Shown here: in pieces, positions 49,722-59,861 of the stretch | How the letters are laid out: each line of letters opens with the position of its first letter | Position numbering within the stretch: the first letter of the stretch is position 1 | Assembly: GCA_021325235.1 (NCBI GenBank) | Contig: JAJPHN010000049.1 | Location: forward strand, 62,001-126,000 | Direction of reading: 5' to 3' | Length of the DNA: 64,000 nucleotides | Origin: Terriglobia bacterium | GTDB lineage: Bacteria > Acidobacteriota > Terriglobia > Bryobacterales > Bryobacteraceae | Notes under the pieces: generated by a model | Database searches by the model: none | What the model was told of the DNA's origin: nothing | The model's input: only the letters and a program-made list of their open reading frames with translations | Program-made: the position numbers and the translations under genes

Positions 49722-51773
49722 CTACGGTTTGGGCGAGGCGGGATTGAAGTAATCCGCGAACGCCTGGCCATTGGGCGTGCCAAGACCGGTTACGTTGTCC
49801 CAGCCATTGGTTGTCTTGAGGCCCGTATCGGTGCCGAAGGTGACCACAAGGGTTTCACCCGAGTATTGCGGTGTCCAGAGAGCACTATAGAACTGCGTCG
49901 TGTTCCCCAGCGGTGCGGCCAACTGAGCTGCGGTGTAGTTGGTCGTTGTGCCGGATGTAATGTTAAGGATCGAACCCGTTACGTTCGTTGTCGAGGTGAC
50001 CGGACGAACATCCGTGATGCTTCCGTAGGGCATAGAGTAGAGATACTTCGCGGCCTGGCCGAGCGGCGCACCGGCTTCCTGATTGGCGATGGCCCAGAGT
50101 GCGGAGAACATCGGACAGGCCAGGCTCGTGCCGCCGTACACTTGCCAGGTCGGAGCTGGATAGGTGCCGGGAACGGTTATGGCGATCACGCCGCCCGTAA
50201 ACGGATCGGCAAGCCACGAGATATCGGGCAACTGGCGGGCGGTACCCGGCAGATGCGCCTGAAACGCCGGCTTGCTGAAGACCGCGCTCGGGCCGCCCCC
50301 GGAACCGAAGAAGAAGCCGGTGTTCACAGGAGGATTAAAGATGGTCCCCTGAATATCAAGGTAGGTTTCGTTGGTGCCCCAACCGGTCTGCCAGGCAATC
50401 GAACCATTGCTTTTCAGGGCGAGACTAACCCCGCCGACCGCGGTGGCATGAGGACTGTCGGCCGGAGCTGAAACGGACGCTGTGATGCCGTTCAGATCAT
50501 AGGTGAAGTCGCCACTGTCGCCGGTGGAGAAATTCGCCGAGATACCCAGCACCGCGGCGATTTCGTTGAGCAGATCCTCATTCAAGAGGATGCTTCTCGG
50601 CACGAAAGCTTCTTCGGCGCCGTAGCTGCCCGAGATGACGTTGCCGAGGCCGTAGTTCTCTGCGTAGTACTGTGCCTGATTGACGTCCTGGAAGCTGGCA
50701 GACGGCGGCACGACCAAAGCGATGTTCGCGCCGGGTGCGATGGCATGTGCCCATTCGACATCAATGTTGATCTCGGGATCTTCTCCCGCGCAGCCGGACG
50801 CAACGGGATAGTTAATGATGCTGAAATTCGACGGGGTCAGCGGCGGAAGGCCATAGCGGGCAGAGAAGGCGTTGGCGTCCTGCGTAATGGTCGGCGAGCC
50901 GCACCAATCGATGATGACGATCGTCTGTCCGGTGCCGTCGTGACCGGCTTTATAAAGACCGCTCAGATTGTAGGCGCCCCAGACATCCTGGGGCGCGTAT
51001 CCGCAGCCCGGAATGGTGGGATCGAGCACGTAGCTGTTGCCCTTATAGGTGGCGACAGTGGTGCTGTTGGCGAACGTTTGAGTGGTGGTTCCGTTGAAGC
51101 AGGCATTGGTGAAGAAGTTGCCGCTGGTATCGTCGGCTGTTACAGCGGGCTTCGGACCGATGCCGTTTCGCACGGGCTTGAGAGCGCGCTGCACGTACGG
51201 ATGCTGGTATTCGAGATTATCGAGACCGGCTACGGATTGGACCAGCGCGGCTGCTGGACCCTCGACGAAGGGTTCAGTGGCGTTGGCGCGGAACGTCTTA
51301 CCCGACACCTGGTAGTTATTGAGCGTCGTATGGAAAGCACGCTGCACGTTGGCGACTGTGCCGCGGGCGCGCACGAACATGTTGTCGGGGCCGGTGCTGA
51401 CGACCTGCAAACCGTGGGAGACAAAGAAGGTTTTCACGGTTTCGGCTTCGTCTTTCGTGGGTGCGAAGCGGGCGGAGAACTCGGCTTTGGTGAGCCAGCG
51501 ATGATAATTCGGAGAATTGGGGTTGTATAAGTCCTGCGCCAGCTGATCGAGCTCACCCCGATTGTGCGGATTGAGCCAGATACTGACATCGATCGTCTGG
51601 GCCGGATCGACGGGGCCGGCGAGTTTGGACTCGGCCACGAACGACGGCGTGTTGCCGGCGATCAATTGACCGGGGACTGAGGCGGGCGGAGCGGCAACCA
51701 GCGGCACGGCAAGCAGCAGGGCCACTCCGAATCGGGGTACGATGCCAGGGGTTTCCTTAGCGGTAATAGGCAT
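49722..51773 (-). CDS. S53 family serine-carboxyl peptidase (kumamolisin/sedolisin-like)
   Basis: 683 residues from ATG 51773, with AGGAG seven bases upstream; a longer in-frame extension to 51860 lacks that SD. Signal peptide (FGVALLLAVPLVAAPPAS), pro-domain (about 45-190, LYNPNSPNYHRWLTKAEF) and catalytic domain. Active site: Glu and Asp in EINIDVEWAHAIAPGA, oxyanion Asp in TGDSGDFTYD, nucleophile Ser in YGGTSLACPMFSAL, and C-terminal calcium site. It is an exported, acid-active endopeptidase by family. It is one of two adjacent peptidase-like genes. Confidence 0.93.
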   Translation of the reverse strand: MPITAKETPGIVPRFGVALLLAVPLVAAPPASVPGQLIAGNTPSFVAESKLAGPVDPAQTIDVSIWLNPHNRGELDQLAQDLYNPNSPNYHRWLTKAEFSARFAPTKDEAETVKTFFVSHGLQVVSTGPDNMFVRARGTVANVQRAFHTTLNNYQVSGKTFRANATEPFVEGPAAALVQSVAGLDNLEYQHPYVQRALKPVRNGIGPKPAVTADDTSGNFFTNACFNGTTTQTFANSTTVATYKGNSYVLDPTIPGCGYAPQDVWGAYNLSGLYKAGHDGTGQTIVIIDWCGSPTITQDANAFSARYGLPPLTPSNFSIINYPVASGCAGEDPEINIDVEWAHAIAPGANIALVVPPSASFQDVNQAQYYAENYGLGNVISGSYGAEEAFVPRSILLNEDLLNEIAAVLGISANFSTGDSGDFTYDLNGITASVSAPADSPHATAVGGVSLALKSNGSIAWQTGWGTNETYLDIQGTIFNPPVNTGFFFGSGGGPSAVFSKPAFQAHLPGTARQLPDISWLADPFTGGVIAITVPGTYPAPTWQVYGGTSLACPMFSALWAIANQEAGAPLGQAAKYLYSMPYGSITDVRPVTSTTNVTGSILNITSGTTTNYTAAQLAAPLGNTTQFYSALWTPQYSGETLVVTFGTDTGLKTTNGWDNVTGLGTPNGQAFADYFNPASPKP

Positions 51774-51941
51774 GTGATCTCCTGATGGATTTTCAAGGGT
51801 CGGAATAAGGGCACCCAGTAACGGGCGTACTAGAACTCCCCTGAGGAGATCAGAATACACGGAGTTAAAGGTACTTACTAGTATTCTTTTGTACTACATA
51901 CAGCTGCACACAACGGCCTAGTGGGTAACAGTTAGAACCCA

Positions 51942-52541
51942 TCAATGCGCGTCGGTCCCACGACTCGCTTGGGTGTGCATCAACTGAATGGCTCGGGCGG
52001 AAAGACGAAGTTGGTCGGTGTTGGAAAAGTCAAGATCGCTGGTGGTCCAGCGGGCACGCATCAGGCCCTGCGACCTATGGCCTTCTTGCGGAAGCAGGAG
52101 ATGCGTGATCTCATGCGCCAGGATACGGCCCAGAATGATGAATAAGAACCGGTTGGCCCCTTGGAGGCTTAGTGCGCGATCGTAAAAAACAAAGGCCGCT
52201 GGCCGGCCGGAGGAGCTGTCGGCGAATCCGAATACGTTCGGCTTCACCTCCGGCCAGGCTTTCGGAACCAGGCGTAAGATCATCTCGCCGGGAAAGTGCG
52301 GTGAAAGGCACGGCTGAACGCTTGCCTCCGGGAGGCAGTTGATCCACTCCAGGCGAAGCTGTGCGGGACGGAGGATCCGCGCAGCTTCGCTCTCGGAGTA
52401 TTCGAGCAGGGAAGCCCGAACGTCGGACGAGCTGTAGACGTAGATTCGAATCGCGGGCGCCGGAGGGCCAGCGACCCCGGCTGCGCGAGCCCCAGACACG
52501 AAAAAGAAAGCGGTGAGCAAAACGGTTTGGCTGCGAGTCAT
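51942..52541 (-). CDS. exported HExxH metalloprotease-like protein
   Basis: 199 residues from ATG 52541 (a TTG five codons upstream is possible). Signal peptide (SQTVLLTAFFFVSGARA), then a globular domain with LAHEITHLLLPQEGHRSQGLMR, i.e. HEIxH plus a third His six residues on and a Met-turn-like GLM. This pattern is typical of a zincin family I have seen in acidobacteria. The role is not known; it is directly upstream of the S53 peptidase on the same strand, with a gap of 168 bp. Confidence 0.78.
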   Translation of the reverse strand: MTRSQTVLLTAFFFVSGARAAGVAGPPAPAIRIYVYSSSDVRASLLEYSESEAARILRPAQLRLEWINCLPEASVQPCLSPHFPGEMILRLVPKAWPEVKPNVFGFADSSSGRPAAFVFYDRALSLQGANRFLFIILGRILAHEITHLLLPQEGHRSQGLMRARWTTSDLDFSNTDQLRLSARAIQLMHTQASRGTDAH

Positions 52542-52722
52542 GGCGAGTGGCCTCAAGGTAATGCGAAGGTGAGCGCAAGTCGATGCAAGCGCAATGAAAC
52601 GCGAGCTACCCGTAGGTCACGAGCTATGTAGTTGTTAAGACAGGGCTTGTACGATCCGCTATGGGGCGAACCGGGAACGTGATACACTCGCCTGCTAAGC
52701 GGAGAGCGGCCTGGGGGAGCAG

Positions 52723-55230
52723 GTGGAGCAGGAATTACATTCGGGCCGGGAGGGTTCTGGGCCCGCCACCATCGTTTTCGGTCCATTCGAGCTGGATCTG
52801 CGCGCGGCGGAGCTTCGCAAGAACGGGCACCGGATCCGGTTACAGGAGCAGCCGTTTCAGATCCTGACCGAATTGCTCGCGCGCCCGGGAGAGGTGGTAA
52901 CGCGCGAAGAACTTCGCCGGAAACTCTGGCCGGATAATATCGCCGTCGAGTTCGATCACAGTATCAATGCCGCCGTGAAGCGGCTGCGCGACACGCTGCG
53001 CGATTCAGCGGAAAATCCGCGCTACATTGAGACCGTCGCGCGCCGAGGGTATCGGTTTATCGGGCAGATTCAGGCACCTTCTCCGCCGGGATTCTTGAAA
53101 GATAGCGGTGAGGCCGTGGAGCGCATTGTTCCATCGACCCTTCAGCCGAGCCGGCAAGCGCCAGGCTGGCTCTGGATCCCGCTAGCGGCCGGCCTGGCAT
53201 TGCTGCTGGCGGTATTCGCCCTCTGGTACCGGCGCACCGCTCCGGCGCGCTGGGTCCGAAACGAGGCGCTTCCCGAGATTCAACGCCTGGTCGACAAGGG
53301 TGAGTATGCGCGCGGGTTTCCCTTGCTGTATCGCAGCCAGCAGATTCTGCCGCACGATGCGCGGTTAAACAAGATTCGCCGCGAGATCTCGTATCTCGTT
53401 CCAATTCGCGTAACACCGGACGGTGCGAGCATTTATCTCAAGCCATATGCCCAGCCCGATGCGGAGTGGCTGCATGTCGGGCAGTCGCCGCTCGGAAATT
53501 TTCTGCTGCCAGTCGGGTATTTCCGCTGGAAAGTGACCAAGCCGGGTTACGAGACGCTCGAGGTGGCGGCCGGCCTGCAGGGTCCGATCGAGTTTGCGCT
53601 TCACCGGCAGGGAAGCGGTCCGGGCGGCATGGTGCACGTGCCCTCCGGCAATGTCGAGATGTTCGGGCACGCCCCGGTCTGGCTGCCGGATTTCTGGGTG
53701 GATAAATACGAAGTAACGAACCGGGAGTTTCAGGAATTCGTCGATGCGGGCGGCTATCGGGACCGCCGATTCTGGCGTGAGCCGTTCCTGGAGGATGGGC
53801 GAGAGCTCTCGTGGGAAGAAGCGATGCAGATATTTCGCGATGCAACGGGTCGCCCTGGCCCGGCAGGCTGGGAAGTGAGCCATTACGCGGGCGGCCGCGA
53901 GGATTTTCCTGTGACCGGCGTGAGCTGGTTTGAAGCGATGGCCTACGCGGCGTTTGCCAACAAGCAGCTGCCGACGGTGTATCAGTGGCAGCGCACCGCG
54001 AGCCCGGGAATTTACTCCGATTTCCTGCTCTTCAGCAACTTCAATGGTCAAGGACCGGTGCCGGCCGGAAGCATGCGCGGGCTGGGCGCGTTTGGGACTT
54101 ACGATCTGGCGGGAAATGCGAAGGAGTGGTGCTGGAATGCGACCGGTAGCCGTCGCTATATTCTGGGCGGTGGCTGGAATGAGGGCCGCTCGTACTATCT
54201 GACGCCGGATGCGGTAACGCCTTTCGACCGCTCTCCGCTGAACGGTTTCCGCTGCGTGCGGAATCCGGCCGGTCCACCGCCTGCTGCTCTCGCCGGACCA
54301 GTGGAAAACAACTCGCGCGACCATCGCCGCGAGAAGCCCGTATCCGATTCCGTGTTTCGGGTGCTGCAGGGTTTCTACACCTACGATCGAACGGCGCTCG
54401 ATCCGGTTCGGGAAGCGCTCGATGAGAGCGCGCCGGGCTGGCGAGCGGAGAAGATTGGGCTGAACGCCGCCTACGCTCACGAACGATTCGCCGCGTGGCT
54501 ATACCTGCCGAAGAATTCGAAGCCGCCGTATCAGACGGTGGTGTACTTCCCGGCGGGCGCGGCGTACCTGATGCCGGCCATTGACGAGGCGGAGATTCAC
54601 CGCTTCGATTTCCTGATGAAGAGCGGGCGGGCCGTGCTGTTCCCGATTTATCACGGGACTTATGAGCGCCGCACCGCCAGCCGCGAACCGATGCCCGGCG
54701 TGCCGGTCTCCTTTCCGATCTTCTTGCGAACGTATCAGCGCGAACCTGCGAAGCCCTTAGGACCAAGCGCCGAGCGAGACAGCATCATTCAGCAGTTCAA
54801 GGATTTTGCGCGCGCTCTCGATTACCTGGAGACGCGTAAGGATATCGCGCTGGACCGGCTTGGTTATTTCGGTATCAGCGGCGGCGCGCGGCTGGCGCTG
54901 ATTTTCCTGGCGCAGGATTCGCGGATCAGAGCGGCGAGTCTAGCCGAAGGCGGGCTCTCGTCGGAGAGTAAACCGCCGGAGATTGACGAGATCAACTTTG
55001 CGCCGCGCGTGAGGACGCCGGTGCTCATGCTGAACGGCCGTTACGACTTTCCGCATCCGGTGGAAACGGACCAGATTCCCACGTTTCGGCTGCTGGGCAC
55101 GGCGGAGAAAGACAAGCGGTACGTGCTGTTTGATGGCGGGCACGCCGGTCCGGTGCAGCAGTACATCAGGGACACACTCGACTGGTTCGACCGGTATCTT
55201 GGCCCGGTGAACGGCCCTGTTGACGAGTAA
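52723..55230 (+). CDS. fusion: OmpR/CadC-type winged helix + TM + PEGA-like + SUMF1/FGE domain + alpha/beta hydrolase
   Basis: 835 residues from GTG 52723 with GGGGGAG upstream. Domains in order: winged helix-turn-helix (17-116, GPFELDLRAAELRKNG, REELRRKLWPDNIAVEFDHS, ETVARRGYRF); transmembrane helix (148-169); PEGA-like beta domain (225-295); SUMF1/FGE-sulfatase fold (303-513, MVHVPSGNVEMFGH, DKYEVTNREFQEFV, LAGNAKEWCWN, GFRCVR); and a serine hydrolase (540-828) with GISGG (Ser719), Asp775 in RYDFPH and His807 in GGHAGP. TM topology places the SUMF1 and hydrolase domains outside and the DNA-binding part inside. TGATACACT near 52680 may be its -10. I know the kinase-headed analogue from acidobacteria; the winged-helix version is rarer to my knowledge. 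Confidence 0.88.
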   Translation: MEQELHSGREGSGPATIVFGPFELDLRAAELRKNGHRIRLQEQPFQILTELLARPGEVVTREELRRKLWPDNIAVEFDHSINAAVKRLRDTLRDSAENPRYIETVARRGYRFIGQIQAPSPPGFLKDSGEAVERIVPSTLQPSRQAPGWLWIPLAAGLALLLAVFALWYRRTAPARWVRNEALPEIQRLVDKGEYARGFPLLYRSQQILPHDARLNKIRREISYLVPIRVTPDGASIYLKPYAQPDAEWLHVGQSPLGNFLLPVGYFRWKVTKPGYETLEVAAGLQGPIEFALHRQGSGPGGMVHVPSGNVEMFGHAPVWLPDFWVDKYEVTNREFQEFVDAGGYRDRRFWREPFLEDGRELSWEEAMQIFRDATGRPGPAGWEVSHYAGGREDFPVTGVSWFEAMAYAAFANKQLPTVYQWQRTASPGIYSDFLLFSNFNGQGPVPAGSMRGLGAFGTYDLAGNAKEWCWNATGSRRYILGGGWNEGRSYYLTPDAVTPFDRSPLNGFRCVRNPAGPPPAALAGPVENNSRDHRREKPVSDSVFRVLQGFYTYDRTALDPVREALDESAPGWRAEKIGLNAAYAHERFAAWLYLPKNSKPPYQTVVYFPAGAAYLMPAIDEAEIHRFDFLMKSGRAVLFPIYHGTYERRTASREPMPGVPVSFPIFLRTYQREPAKPLGPSAERDSIIQQFKDFARALDYLETRKDIALDRLGYFGISGGARLALIFLAQDSRIRAASLAEGGLSSESKPPEIDEINFAPRVRTPVLMLNGRYDFPHPVETDQIPTFRLLGTAEKDKRYVLFDGGHAGPVQQYIRDTLDWFDRYLGPVNGPVDE

Positions 55231-55233
55231 AGC

Positions 55234-56709
55234 TCAGGCGAGCATGTCGCGGTTCACGTTGCCCGCGACATCGGTTAGCCGGAAGTGACGGCCCTGGAAT
55301 TTGTAGGTGAGCCGGGTGTGGTCAATACCCAGGCAGTTCAGCACGGTCGCCTGGACATCATGGATCGGCACGGGATCCTTGACAACGTTATAGGAGAAAT
55401 CGTCGGTCTCGCCGATGACGGCGCCGCGCTTGATGCCGCCGCCGGCAAACCACATGGTGAAGCAGCGGGGATGGTGGTCGCGGCCGTAATTGTCCTTCGT
55501 GAGATGGCCCTGGCAGTACACGGTTCGGCCGAATTCCCCGCCCCAGATGACGAGCGTGTCGTCGAGAAGCCCGCGCTGTTTGAGATCGGTGACGAGAGCA
55601 GCCGAGGCCTGGTCGGTGCCGCCGCATTGCAGTGCGAGGTCGCGGGGCAGGTCGTTGTGTTGATCCCAGCCGCGGTGGTAAAGCTGGATAAAACGCACGC
55701 CACGTTCCGCCAGCCGCCGCGCCATGAGGCAGTTCGCGGCATACGTGCCGGGCTTACGGGAATCGGGGCCGTAGAGCTCGAACGTGCTGGCGGGCTCCTT
55801 GGAGAGATCGGTCAGCTCCGGGATGGAGGATTGCATCCGATACGCCATCTCGTACTGCGAGATGCGGGTGGTGATTTCGGGATCCCCGTATTTCTGTTCG
55901 GTGATGTGGTTGAGTTCGGAGAGAGTATCGAGCATGGCGCGGCGCGTTTCGGCATCGACGCCTTCCGGATTCGCGAGGAAGAGCACGGGGTCGCCCGAGG
56001 CGCGGAAGCGCACGCCCTGATACTTCGAGGGCAGAAAGCCGCTGGACCAGAGGCGGGTAAATAGAGGCTGATCGCGGTTGAGCGCCTGCGCCTGTGAGAT
56101 GAGCACGACGAAGGCGGGCATGTTCTGGTTCTCGCTGCCGAGCCCGTACGTTACCCACGAACCCATGCTGGGGCGGCCGGGCTGCATGAAGCCGGTCTGG
56201 ATGAAGGTGATGGCGGGATCGTGGTTGATGGCGTCGGTGTTGACGGTCTTGACGACGGTGAGTTCGTCCACGATTTTCGCCGTGTGGGGCAGCAGCTCGC
56301 TGACCCAGAGGCCATTTTGCCCGGCCTGATGGAATTTGAAGATCGAGGGCGCCACCGGCAGCGAGTTTTGGCCCGAGGTCATGCCGGTGATGCGCTGACC
56401 TTGACGGACGGAGTCGGGCAGTTCGGTGCCGGAAAGCGCGGCGAGTTTCGGCTTGTAGTCGAAAAGGTCGATCTGCGAAGGCGCACCGGATTGGTGGAGA
56501 TAGATGACGCGCTTGGCTTTGGGAGCAAAGTGTGGCAGATCGGGCAGACCGCCAAATTTCGCGGCGCTTTCGAGCTTGGGTGCGGCTTCATCGGCGAAGA
56601 TTTCAGGATTCAACAGCGAGGCGAGAGCCATCACCCCGATGCCCTTGCTGGCGCGGCCGAACAGCTGACGGCGGGTGAGTTGGATTTGTTCTTCGAGGGC
56701 GGGATTCAT
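55234..56709 (-). CDS. DUF1501 domain protein (sulfatase-like fold)
   Basis: 491 residues. It starts with a twin-arginine-like [20 protein letters not shown] signal and then shows DUF1501 signatures: [105 protein letters not shown]. Members are secreted and share the alkaline-phosphatase/sulfatase fold; their activity is not established. It lies 11 bp after the DUF1549/DUF1553 gene and is surely co-transcribed. Confidence 0.93.
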
Positions 56710-56720
56710 GATTCTGGGCT

Positions 56721-59700
56721 CTAGTTCTTGGTAATGGTTTCATCCATGTTCAGGATGGTGCTCGACACCATGGTCCAGGCGGCGAGCTCACTCGGATTGC
56801 GTTTCGGGTCCCGCTTCGATTCGCCCACTGCCAGCAGTTTTTCGGCGGCTTTGGGGTTGGAATCGTAGTGCGCCATTTCTTTCTTGTACAGACCATCCAG
56901 GATTTCGATTTCCTGGGCGGTTGGCTCGCGATCGGTCGCCAGCCGGAAGGCGTGCCGGATACGTGCTTCGGGAGTCGGCCCGGCTTCGCGGAGGTCGCGC
57001 TCGGCCAATGCACGAGCGGCTTCGACATAGGTGGGATCGTTCATCAGCACGAGCGCCTGTAGCGGCGTGTTAGTGACGCCGCGGCGGGCGGTGCACTTTT
57101 CGCGCGATGGTGCATCGAAGATATTCAGCGTGGGATACGGCACAGTGCGTTTCCAGAAGGTGTACAGGCTGCGGCGGTAGAGATCGGCGCCGTGGCTCTG
57201 GTCATACGTCTGAGCAGAAAAGCCGCCGCCGAAGGCCATCTCTTCCCAGAGGCCTTTCGGCTGATACGGCGAGACGCTCGGGCCGCCGATTTTTTCGTTG
57301 ATGAGACCGCTGACGGCGAGCGCATTGTCGCGGACCATTTCAGCATCCAGACGGAAACGAGGACCATGAGCGAGAAGCCGGTTCTCCGGATCCTTTTCGA
57401 GCAGCTCGGGCGTGACTTCCGAGCCCTGGCGATACGTGGCGGATGTAACGATCAGCCGCTGCATGGCTTTCACGTTCCAATGCTGGGCGACGAACTCAGT
57501 GGCGAGCCAGTCGAGTAGTTCCTGGTTGCTCGGCGGATCGCCCTGGGAGCCGAAATCTTCGCTGGTTTTGACGATCCCGAGGCCGAAATAGATCTGCCAG
57601 AAATGATTCACGGCTACGCGCGCGGTTAAGGGATTCGCCGGATCGACCAGCCATTTCGCGAGCGTCAGGCGATTGCGCGGCGCATCCTTGGGAAGCGGCG
57701 GCAGGATGGCGGGCGTATTTGGTTCGACCTTTTCGCCCTTGTTGCGATAATCGCCGCGAGCGAGGACGTAAGTTTCGCGCGGCTTCTCCATTTCGCGCAT
57801 CACCATGGTCGACGGGATTTCCTGATTGATCTCGTCGAGACCGCGCTCGAACTCCCGGTAATCGACACTCAGCTGCTGCTCGGCGGGATTGCCGCCTTCC
57901 TTGAGAAAATAAGCGCGGAGCCATCGCTTCTGCTCGGCGGTGCGCTTCTCTTCCGGAATGGCAAGGATATTCGAGAGCGGATGCAGCAGACCGAGCTGGT
58001 AGGCTTCGGTCGCGTACAGACGGCGATTGTAGAAACGCAGGTCGCCGAGAGAACCTTTGAACGGCGTACCCCAGTCTTTATTGCCGATCTGCAGATCGCC
58101 TTTGGCAAACGAGACAGCGCCGAGATGGTCCTCGCCGACGGTGGTCTTTACACTGCGGCCATCGATATAAATCTGTATTGCCTTGGCGCGGCCCGAGCCG
58201 TCATACGAGACAGCGACGTGGTTCCAGTGCTCGACCGGTTCGCCGTTATCATCTTCTTCAAAGCGAACGCCATCTTTGGATCTGACTTCGAGCAAGGAAT
58301 GGGAATCCGCACCGCGCATGCGTACGATGACGCTGCAACTGCCCCGCGAGCAGTAATCGAGGGCGATTTCGTAACCAGCGCTGTCTTTGGGCGACTTTTC
58401 GTAATGCTGGAGAATCGCCATGCCCGAAGGGCCGCCCGCACGCACCCAGAATGCGATGGTAAAGGGCCGGGCGGAGTCGAGCGCGCCGGTTTCGCCGAAG
58501 CTGATCTGCGCCTCCTGCATCAAGTCGATCGCTCGACCGTAACGGCCATCCACAAAAGCAGGCTTGCCGCTGAGGACTTTGCCGCTCTTTGCGGGATCGT
58601 CGAACTGGAACTCCGAGACGAGGCCGTCGGTGACATCCGGTGCTGCGAGTTGCCGCTGATGCTGTTCCCAATCCGTCTGCGCTGCGCGGATTTCAGCATC
58701 CTTCTTGTCAATCGCATCGATCAGGCGCGCTTTCATCTCGGCCTGCTCTTTGCTTGGCAATTGCAGGAAGGGAACGGCGTTGCCTTTCTTGCCGTCGAGG
58801 CCCTTTTCGGCAACGCTGTTAAAGAATGCGCCGAAGCTGTAGAAGTCTTTCTGCCGGAGCGGGTCGTATTTGTGATCGTGGCAACGCGCGCAGCCGAGGG
58901 TGATACCAAGCCAGGTGGTAGCGGTGGCTTCAATGCGGTCGACGATGTACTCGTTCTGGTATTCCTCGGGAATCGCGCCGCCCTCGAAATTGATCATGTG
59001 ATTGCGGTTGAAACCGGTGGCAATGATCTGCGATTCGGTGGGGTGCGGAAGAAGGTCGCCGGCCAATTGCTCGATGGTGAATTCATCGTACGGCAGGTTG
59101 GCGTTGAAGGCCCGGATCACCCAATCCCGCCACGGCCACATCTCGCGGGCGCTATCGATGTGATAGCCGTGGGTATCGGCATAGCGCGCGAAATCGAGCC
59201 ACTGCATCGCCATGCGTTCGCCATAGTGCGGCGAGGCGAGCAGGCGGTCGACAACTTTTTCGTAGGCGTTGAGCGATTTGTCTTTAAGGAAGGCGTCCAG
59301 TTCGGCGGGTGTGGGCGGAAGCCCCGTGAGATCAAAGGTCACCCGGCGCAGCAGTGTGACCTTGTCAGCCTCCGGTGTGGGTTTGAGACCTTCCTTCTGG
59401 AGCTTAGCCAGCACGAAGCGGTCGATCGGATTGCGCACCCACTTTTCATCTGCGACGGGCGGGAGTTCGGGGCGTTTGGGCGGAGTAAAGGACCAGTGTG
59501 TCTCCCATGTGGCGCCGCTATCGATCCAGTTCCTGATGGTTTCGATCTGAGCAGCGGTCAGTTTCCGGTTTGCATACGGCGGGGGCATGCGCAGCGCCGG
59601 ATTCGGATTGCTGATTTTCTGATACATCTTGCTCGCAGCCGAATTGCCGGGCACGATCACGCCGGGCTTGCCGAAGGCTCCATCCTTGGTGTCGAAATGC

Positions 59701-59861
59701 AGACCGGCCATGCGGTGTTTCTCATCGGGACCATGGCAGGTGAAGCAGTTATCGGAGAGTATGGGACGAATCTGGCGATCAAAATCGACTGTGGGCGCGG
59801 TCGCAGCTAACAGCGTAGAAACAGCGAACGGTAAACAAAGGAGGGCCGACAGGGCACGCAT
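56721..59861 (-). CDS. cytochrome-like DUF1549/DUF1553 protein with LamG domain
   Basis: 1046 residues. Signal peptide ([17 protein letters not shown]), then a planctomycete-type cytochrome C domain with heme motif [11 protein letters not shown] (about 38-48), DUF1549 ([20 protein letters not shown] through [16 protein letters not shown], with a second CxxCH), a LamG/concanavalin-like insert (about 430-640, [28 protein letters not shown]), and DUF1553 ([57 protein letters not shown]). Pairs with DUF1501 are typical in planctomycetes, verrucomicrobia and acidobacteria; the function is thought to be in polymer breakdown but is unproven. Confidence 0.94.

Follow-up and report, generated by a model that had tools for sequence, protein, structure and literature searches.

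In a 64,000-nucleotide stretch of DNA from a Terriglobia bacterium (assembly GCA_021325235.1, contig JAJPHN010000049.1, positions 62,001 to 126,000; the whole stretch is called the window here), one gene encodes a protein that joins a winged-helix DNA-binding head, through a single membrane helix, to a C-terminal tail composed of a PEGA-like part, a SUMF1-fold domain and an alpha/beta hydrolase with a conserved catalytic triad. Elsewhere the same tail is mostly carried by Ser/Thr kinases, its heads have been exchanged in several lineages, and its kinase-headed forms are associated with genes for extracytoplasmic function (ECF) sigma factors. We consider the window protein to be probably a one-component regulator that spans the membrane in the manner of CadC and ToxR and has exchanged a kinase output for direct binding to DNA.

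Architecture of the window protein and its hydrolase triad

The initial annotation of this stretch, made without database searches, described one polypeptide combining a winged helix, a membrane helix, a PEGA-like domain, a SUMF1 domain and a hydrolase. The single chain is borne out: the 835-residue frame is uninterrupted on a host contig of 137,544 bases (genome 5.03 Mb, with a single copy of the tail). The same head-tail order recurs in three other species at 68-73% mutual identity over ~800 residues, which argues against an assembly join, and a chimera or frameshift is thus ruled out. Pfam recognizes Trans_reg_C, the OmpR/PhoB-type winged helix, in the head (65.5 bits, cut-off 26.2, E 4.5e-18; 70.8 bits in the genome scan) and FGE-sulfatase at residues 306-513 (87.4 bits, cut-off 23.3, E 1.7e-24), both well over cut-off, and finds no kinase in the window protein. 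One membrane helix lies between head and C-terminal part, and in all 83 aligned rows the tail follows a stretch of 20 hydrophobic residues.

The remaining domains are recognized through an AlphaFold2 model built from those 83 rows, with a mean predicted local distance difference test score (pLDDT) of 89.2 and a predicted template modelling score of 0.79. Pfam matches to the hydrolase stay below cut-off (Peptidase_S9, E 0.0021; DLH, E 0.011), and its fold is that of acetyl xylan esterases (Z ~25 over 260-274 residues). VIA-align places residues 533-827 on the Thermotoga acetyl esterase 5fdf (Z 25.1, root mean square deviation [rmsd] 2.9, 262 residues), and Foldseek reports E 5.5e-13 for this part. 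For the PEGA-like domain Pfam gives no match in the window protein at E ≤ 1; the model has strands at 223-292, and of ten relatives scanned with Pfam, four (L064, L075, L082 and L110) have PEGA above the cut-off. Modelled helices span residues 151-191, 195-208 and 213-222, and the helical linker sits near the beginning of the portion common to kinase-headed relatives. Ten-residue blocks of the head have a mean pLDDT of 91-96, except 71-80 (66); scores fall below 50 at residues 1-11, 120-151, 656-673 and 833-835.

Ser719, Asp775 and His807, proposed beforehand as catalytic residues, occur at those positions and are conserved in 83/83, 83/83 and 82/83 rows. The triad is kept across tails as distant as 31% identity to the window protein and is intact in all six winged-helix-headed tails. 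One tail of the 83, L063 (G096:C166), lacks the triad His and has Ala instead; it is also the sole closed open reading frame (ORF) among the 83 without a recognized head.

The SUMF1 part offers a different picture. Residues 301-516 superpose on EgtB 4x8b (VIA-align Z 23.4, rmsd 2.1, 203 residues, 29% identity), and the family profile matches FGE 6s07 at E 2.8e-23. The CHESYC stretch of FGE, which we take to hold its catalytic cysteines, is an insertion relative to that profile, and Cys470 and Cys511 of the window protein are located elsewhere. In EgtB, a DinB domain at the N terminus supplies iron-binding histidines; Pfam found no such domain at E ≤ 1 in the window protein, on which the egtB model scores 65.5 bits, well under its cut-off of 360. 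With CHESYC in an absent insertion and no DinB, the SUMF1 part is neither FGE nor EgtB by defining features, and a catalytic reading of either kind is rejected. The domain more likely binds a ligand than catalyzes, as the initial annotation had supposed from its cysteines, although these proved not to be invariant (Cys470 in 59/83 rows, Cys511 in 67/83). For C-type-lectin domains on kinases, ligand binding has been proposed (PMC7517822).

One tail under several heads

A scan of named genomes returned 18 loci, every match beginning at residue 137 or later, in records titled Acidobacteria, Opitutaceae/Opitutae, Deltaproteobacteria, Myxococcaceae and others. The tail was found in 28/200 genomes of the family (E ≤ 1e-40, query residues 225-835), 45/396 of the phylum (E ≤ 1e-40, whole protein as query) and 39/399 of the class (E ≤ 1e-60), in samples that overlap and that each contain the window's own genome. 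Ninety-three tails met the coverage rule, one being a copy of the window; 88 of them were free of X and closed at the end. The 83-row alignment (A1) consists of these 88 minus six removed by hand, plus the window: L020 and L096 have in-frame stops, the match of L057 stops at residue 789, and L039, L086 and L104 are 95%, 99.6% and 98.7% identical to the retained L037, L085 and L103. A larger tree adds 19 of 25 new loci from the class scan, after removal of five repeats and one short row.

Heads were classified by local hidden Markov models (HMMs) built from fetched sequences. Among the 83 tails of the first tree, 71 have a kinase head, six a winged helix, two a winged helix plus kinase, two a TIR domain, one no head and one an unknown head. 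The larger tree of 102 tails gains 18 kinase-headed rows and one with a weak helix-turn-helix (HTH) head, giving 89 kinase, six winged-helix, two winged-helix-plus-kinase, two TIR and one HTH-like, along with one closed ORF without a recognized head (L063) and one cut off by a contig end (L021). These counts exclude loci whose ORF is broken before any head by a contig end, stop or frame change, e.g., L011, L026, L030, L065, L095, L105, L106, L108, L109, L114, L119, L121 and L122. Besides the window, the winged-helix-only tails are L040, L052, L062, L064 and L075. Pfam confirms Trans_reg_C in L040, L064, L075, L082 and L110, Pkinase in L082, L110, L020, L010 and L018, and TIR_2 in L022. The occurrence of this C-terminal arrangement under a protein kinase, mentioned in the initial annotation, is therefore the prevailing form. 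Its suggestion of modular swapping of input heads held as to the swapping, but the exchanged heads read as outputs and the constant tail as input.

The distribution of winged-helix heads over the tail tree points to repeated exchange. Winged-helix-only tails require four state changes, at least three of them forced by starred branches; tail trees and approximately unbiased (AU) tests were run by a quick method, with support from the SH-like approximate likelihood ratio test (SH-aLRT) only. Uniting the six winged-helix-only tails as one clade is rejected (lnL 438.5 lower, AU p 2.6e-5), and the five without the most distant, L064, are still rejected as a clade (lnL 225.4 lower, AU p 1.9e-4). On these data, winged-helix heads occupy no fewer than three positions in the tree: that of L064, that of L075 and that of the window, the last either joined to the L040 group or distinct from it.

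Proteins with similar heads are abundant. In the phylum sample, 88/297 genomes match the window head at E ≤ 1e-20, and ten such proteins chosen for Pfam all contain Trans_reg_C; the tail is TPR in nine of them and PD40 in the tenth. In the head tree, the closest to the window head is L124 (64% identity), a winged-helix protein of another family; a tail match was sought in its region (L115), and none was found.

A second line of evidence concerns the genes beside kinase heads. The sigma gene next to kinase-headed L159 scores 225 bits with TIGR02999 (cut-off 126) and E 3.4e-56 with Pfam Sigma70_ECF, and an HMM grown from it was used to search upstream regions, counting genes on either strand. 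Such a sigma gene lies within 3 kb upstream of 23/69 kinase-headed loci, and within 1.5 kb of 22/69. Within 1.5 kb the HMM finds no such gene for any of the 8 tails that contain a winged helix, nor for any of 27 winged-helix regulators whose tails are of another kind; for the latter comparison (22/69 versus 0/27) Fisher's p is 2.9e-4, with relatedness ignored. The 69 loci have at least 1.2 kb upstream and include near copies (L037/L039, L085/L086) and the TIR-plus-kinase L020. Seven too-short loci, five unplaced ones (L070, L072, L077, L079 and L093), the kinase-headed or partly kinase-headed L016, L023, L048, L096 and L120, and class-scan loci stand outside the test; of the 29 control loci, 27 had sufficient sequence. 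Upstream of the window gene there is no such sigma gene within 3 kb, and the three genes of its genome over the TIGR02999 cut-off all lie off the window's contig (C60).

Co-occurrence with Hanks kinase genes is a hallmark of ECF43 sigmas, whose consensus motif QTTA holds a phosphorylated Thr (PMC13147305). QTTA is present in 8/23 sigmas near kinases of this tail family; the other 15 differ there and may belong to other sigma groups.

Several further loci carry the tail in unusual settings. In L156:337-3603 (G527) and L158:8568-12062 (G208), a winged helix, a Ser/Thr kinase, a membrane helix and the same tail form one chain, which may represent a step between forms with a kinase head and forms with a winged-helix head. 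L022 and L024 (Opitutaceae/Opitutae records) bear TIR heads, and L020 (Opitutus record) has TIR plus kinase by local HMMs and an in-frame stop in the tail. L233 (G820) has a short HTH-like head (WKEIAAYVSRSVPTVQRW), a candidate second type of DNA-binding head, with Pfam matches below cut-off (HTH_17, E 0.0025). Genome G003 has seven tail matches, two of them pieces of one gene, which suggests paralogue expansion. An anti-phage role was considered and set aside, the window protein having no PADLOC match at E ≤ 1e-3. For L022 and L082, with 6 families and with 25 of 33 families shown respectively, the PADLOC matches lay on the TIR and the kinase region, and among the matches shown for these two none fell on the tail.

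The regulatory reading and its alternatives

The layout of N-terminal winged helix, single membrane helix and C-terminal module, likened to CadC by the initial annotation, holds in the sequence. In the reading we favor, a cytoplasmic winged helix would bind promoter DNA, and the single membrane helix would join it to an outside linker, the PEGA-like part, a SUMF1-fold ligand-binding domain and an esterase-type hydrolase. The ligand may be acylated and glycan-like, bound and perhaps hydrolyzed by the outside module; its binding, or ester hydrolysis, would alter dimer state or conformation and so the transcription of nearby genes. Usually the module would serve as input of a Ser/Thr kinase, with an ECF sigma nearby upstream in about one-third of the cases examined. 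A winged helix in place of the kinase, in the window and at least two other lineages, would convert a kinase-to-sigma relay into direct DNA binding. Replacement of the kinase by the winged helix is the simpler reading because winged-helix tails sit among kinase tails.

A number of results weigh against this interpretation. Counts of state changes do not separate gain from loss. A clade of the window with L040, L052 and L062 is not rejected (lnL 10.1 lower, AU p 0.281), so that the window's head exchange may or may not have an origin of its own. For the eight heads that carry the tail, the head tree (41 rows, 112 columns, long branches) is compatible with one origin (AU p 0.277) as well as with several. 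As for the sigma genes, 46/69 kinase-headed tails have none within 3 kb upstream, the difference between winged-helix-containing (0/8) and kinase tails (23/69) at that distance is not significant (two-sided Fisher p 0.097), and the association tests ignore relatedness of loci. A search of the window for repeats gave no convincing operator, just two short pairs that look like chance, and BLAST at E ≤ 1e-6 found no counterpart of the divergent neighbor in the eight loci compared. Finally, the charge on either side of the membrane helix gives no indication of orientation across the 83 rows (mean K+R 3.75 on the N-side, 3.69 on the C-side), and in the window protein it runs contrary to an inside N terminus (2 versus 4). 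The positive-inside rule was accordingly dropped as topology evidence. The orientation given in the initial annotation, head in the cytoplasm and C-terminal module outside, is not predicted by charge; the tail would lie outside because the heads have cytoplasmic functions.

A more ambitious form of the regulatory reading holds that one catalytically active outside sensor has been repeatedly rewired among four outputs (kinase, often near an ECF sigma, winged helix, both in one chain, and TIR), that a DNA-binding head and a kinase-plus-sigma relay can functionally stand in for each other, and that the esterase makes or ends the signal; we regard this as possible but doubtful.

It is unlikely that the protein is foremost a membrane-anchored extracytoplasmic esterase, its heads regulating the esterase or its own expression and no external signal being sensed. 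The near-invariance of the triad whatever the head and the acetyl xylan esterase fold speak for such a primacy of the enzyme. Against it, the recognized heads are all signaling or DNA-binding ones (kinase, winged helix, TIR and possibly HTH), and among 102 tails the sole closed ORF with no recognized head also lacks the triad His, L021 being cut by a contig end.

Conversely, the hydrolase could be idle, the outside module acting as a receptor in which the triad serves folding or covalent capture, an ester signal acylating Ser719. CE7 acetyl xylan esterases have the motifs GxSQGG and HE, neither of which is matched in the window protein (G-I-S-G-G and H807-A808), and position 720 is variable (Trp in 30, Leu in 11, Ala in 11 and Gly in 4 of 83 rows), as might be expected of such a receptor. 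Retention of the triad down to the most distant tails is typical of working enzymes, and we judge an idle hydrolase quite improbable. That the window gene is a decayed receptor, which lost its kinase and gained a winged helix by chance without regulatory function, is very improbable: the window version is isolated, the single other tail at E ≤ 1e-40 among nine listed genomes of genus g1 besides the window's being kinase-headed (G182, L041), but head and triad are both intact and the same design occurs in five further tails, with which it is not joined in a single clade.

Gene neighborhood and relation to known systems

Under the preferred regulatory reading, targets would be sought among nearby genes (features listed below). 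The divergent neighbor has a Pfam Peptidase_M13 match only at E 0.21 and no NCBIfam match at E ≤ 1e-5. Next to L040, L052 and L062 a divergent TPR gene is shared (53-62% pairwise identity) and is a plausible target of those regulators. A short TCCTGAG-like repeat recurs by eye upstream of the three; it was rejected as an operator, being too short and overlapping the gene start.

Features of the window gene and its divergent side (window coordinates)
Feature	Position	Strand	Basis
Entire gene for 835 aa, beginning with GTG; stop codon 55228-55230	52723..55230	+	ORF coordinates and translation
Winged-helix DNA-binding head, Trans_reg_C residues 36-112, modelled order ~16 to 115	52828..53058	+	Pfam, AlphaFold2
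Membrane helix, residues ~149-169	53167..53229	+	Sequence, modelled helix, hydropathy
Helical linker C-terminal to membrane helix, residues 171-222	53233..53388	+	AlphaFold2 helices
PEGA-like beta domain, residues 223-293	53389..53601	+	Strands in model; Pfam in relatives
SUMF1/EgtB-fold domain, residues 300-516, without FGE catalytic cysteine pair	53620..54270	+	Pfam, VIA-align, alignment to FGE
Alpha/beta hydrolase, acetyl-xylan-esterase-like fold, residues 533-828	54319..55206	+	VIA-align, Foldseek
Ser719, nucleophile in Gly-Ile-Ser-Gly-Gly	54877..54879	+	Ser in 83/83 rows
Asp775, triad acid	55045..55047	+	Asp in 83/83 rows
His807, triad base	55141..55143	+	His in 82/83 rows
Divergent intergenic region, 166 bp, candidate operator site	52557..52722	.	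ORF coordinates
Divergent neighbor, 204 aa, signal-peptide-like start, HEITH motif (by eye), candidate target	51942..52556	-	ORF list, Pfam

Other neighbors are of more general note. At 49722-51860 (-), on the divergent side of the regulator gene, lies a kumamolisin-type protease precursor (Pro-kuma_activ E 3.6e-31). Convergent with the regulator gene, 55234-59861 (-) holds a DUF1501 protein (Pfam E 5.6e-154), whose stop is 3 bases from the regulator's, and upstream of it a large protein whose start is presumably Planctomycetes-cytochrome-like. In L155, the divergent TPR gene reads partly in one frame and partly in another. L157 (G108), the distant winged-helix-headed copy, has a permease gene of the MacB/FtsX kind on one side and, on the other, a divergent gene for an outer-membrane beta-barrel.

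Earlier papers already describe transmembrane regulators, fusions of kinases with SUMF1, and kinase-ECF pairs. The CadC/ToxR transmembrane transcription regulators share with the window protein an N-terminal winged helix, one membrane helix and a C-terminal domain taken as outside, and Acidobacteriae are among the groups with more of them per genome than other prokaryotes (PMC10269533). They differ in the C-terminal part, which here combines a SUMF1 fold with a hydrolase and is also found on Ser/Thr kinases; neither "hydrolase" nor "enzym" occurs in the main text of that paper. The PknS-EcfK/ECF43 system (PMC13147305), as described there, resembles the kinase-headed relatives in its kinase, membrane helix, outside sensor and ECF sigma, although the PknS sensor is TPR, and the window protein has neither a kinase match nor such a sigma within 3 kb upstream.

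Kinases joined to a SUMF1-type (DUF323) domain are described from Chlamydia and Planctomycetota (PMC1262709, PMC11032199), the domain being mostly periplasmic in the latter (PMC11032199). The main texts of both papers lack the word "hydrolase"; "winged" is absent from that of PMC11032199, and "DNA-binding" and "helix-turn-helix" from that of PMC1262709. C-type-lectin/FGE sensors diversified by diversity-generating retroelements (PMC7517822, PMC10907252) are alike, as presented there, in general fold, in acting as ligand-binding sensors and in their exchangeable heads (kinases, TIR and other effectors); here, in contrast, the SUMF1 domain is followed by a conserved hydrolase. Neisseria Rsp, in which the PilS receptor is joined to the PilR DNA-binding domain (PMC10269533), similarly shortens a relay by fusing receptor and DNA-binding domain, but it derives from a two-component system rather than a Ser/Thr kinase plus sigma and has other domains. 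Judging from titles, abstract starts and passages, we came across no open-licence paper that describes this tail joined to a DNA-binding head.

Taken together, the exchange of heads on one tail suggests that a single sensor can become connected to different outputs in the course of evolution. If the regulatory reading is true, this family would be a natural experiment in output rewiring, with the input held constant and the output being a kinase, whether partnered by a sigma or not, direct transcription or TIR, and would let one ask what a sensor requires to drive different outputs. The targets of the winged-helix forms may be close by, and these forms could then reveal the signal of the far commoner kinase versions.

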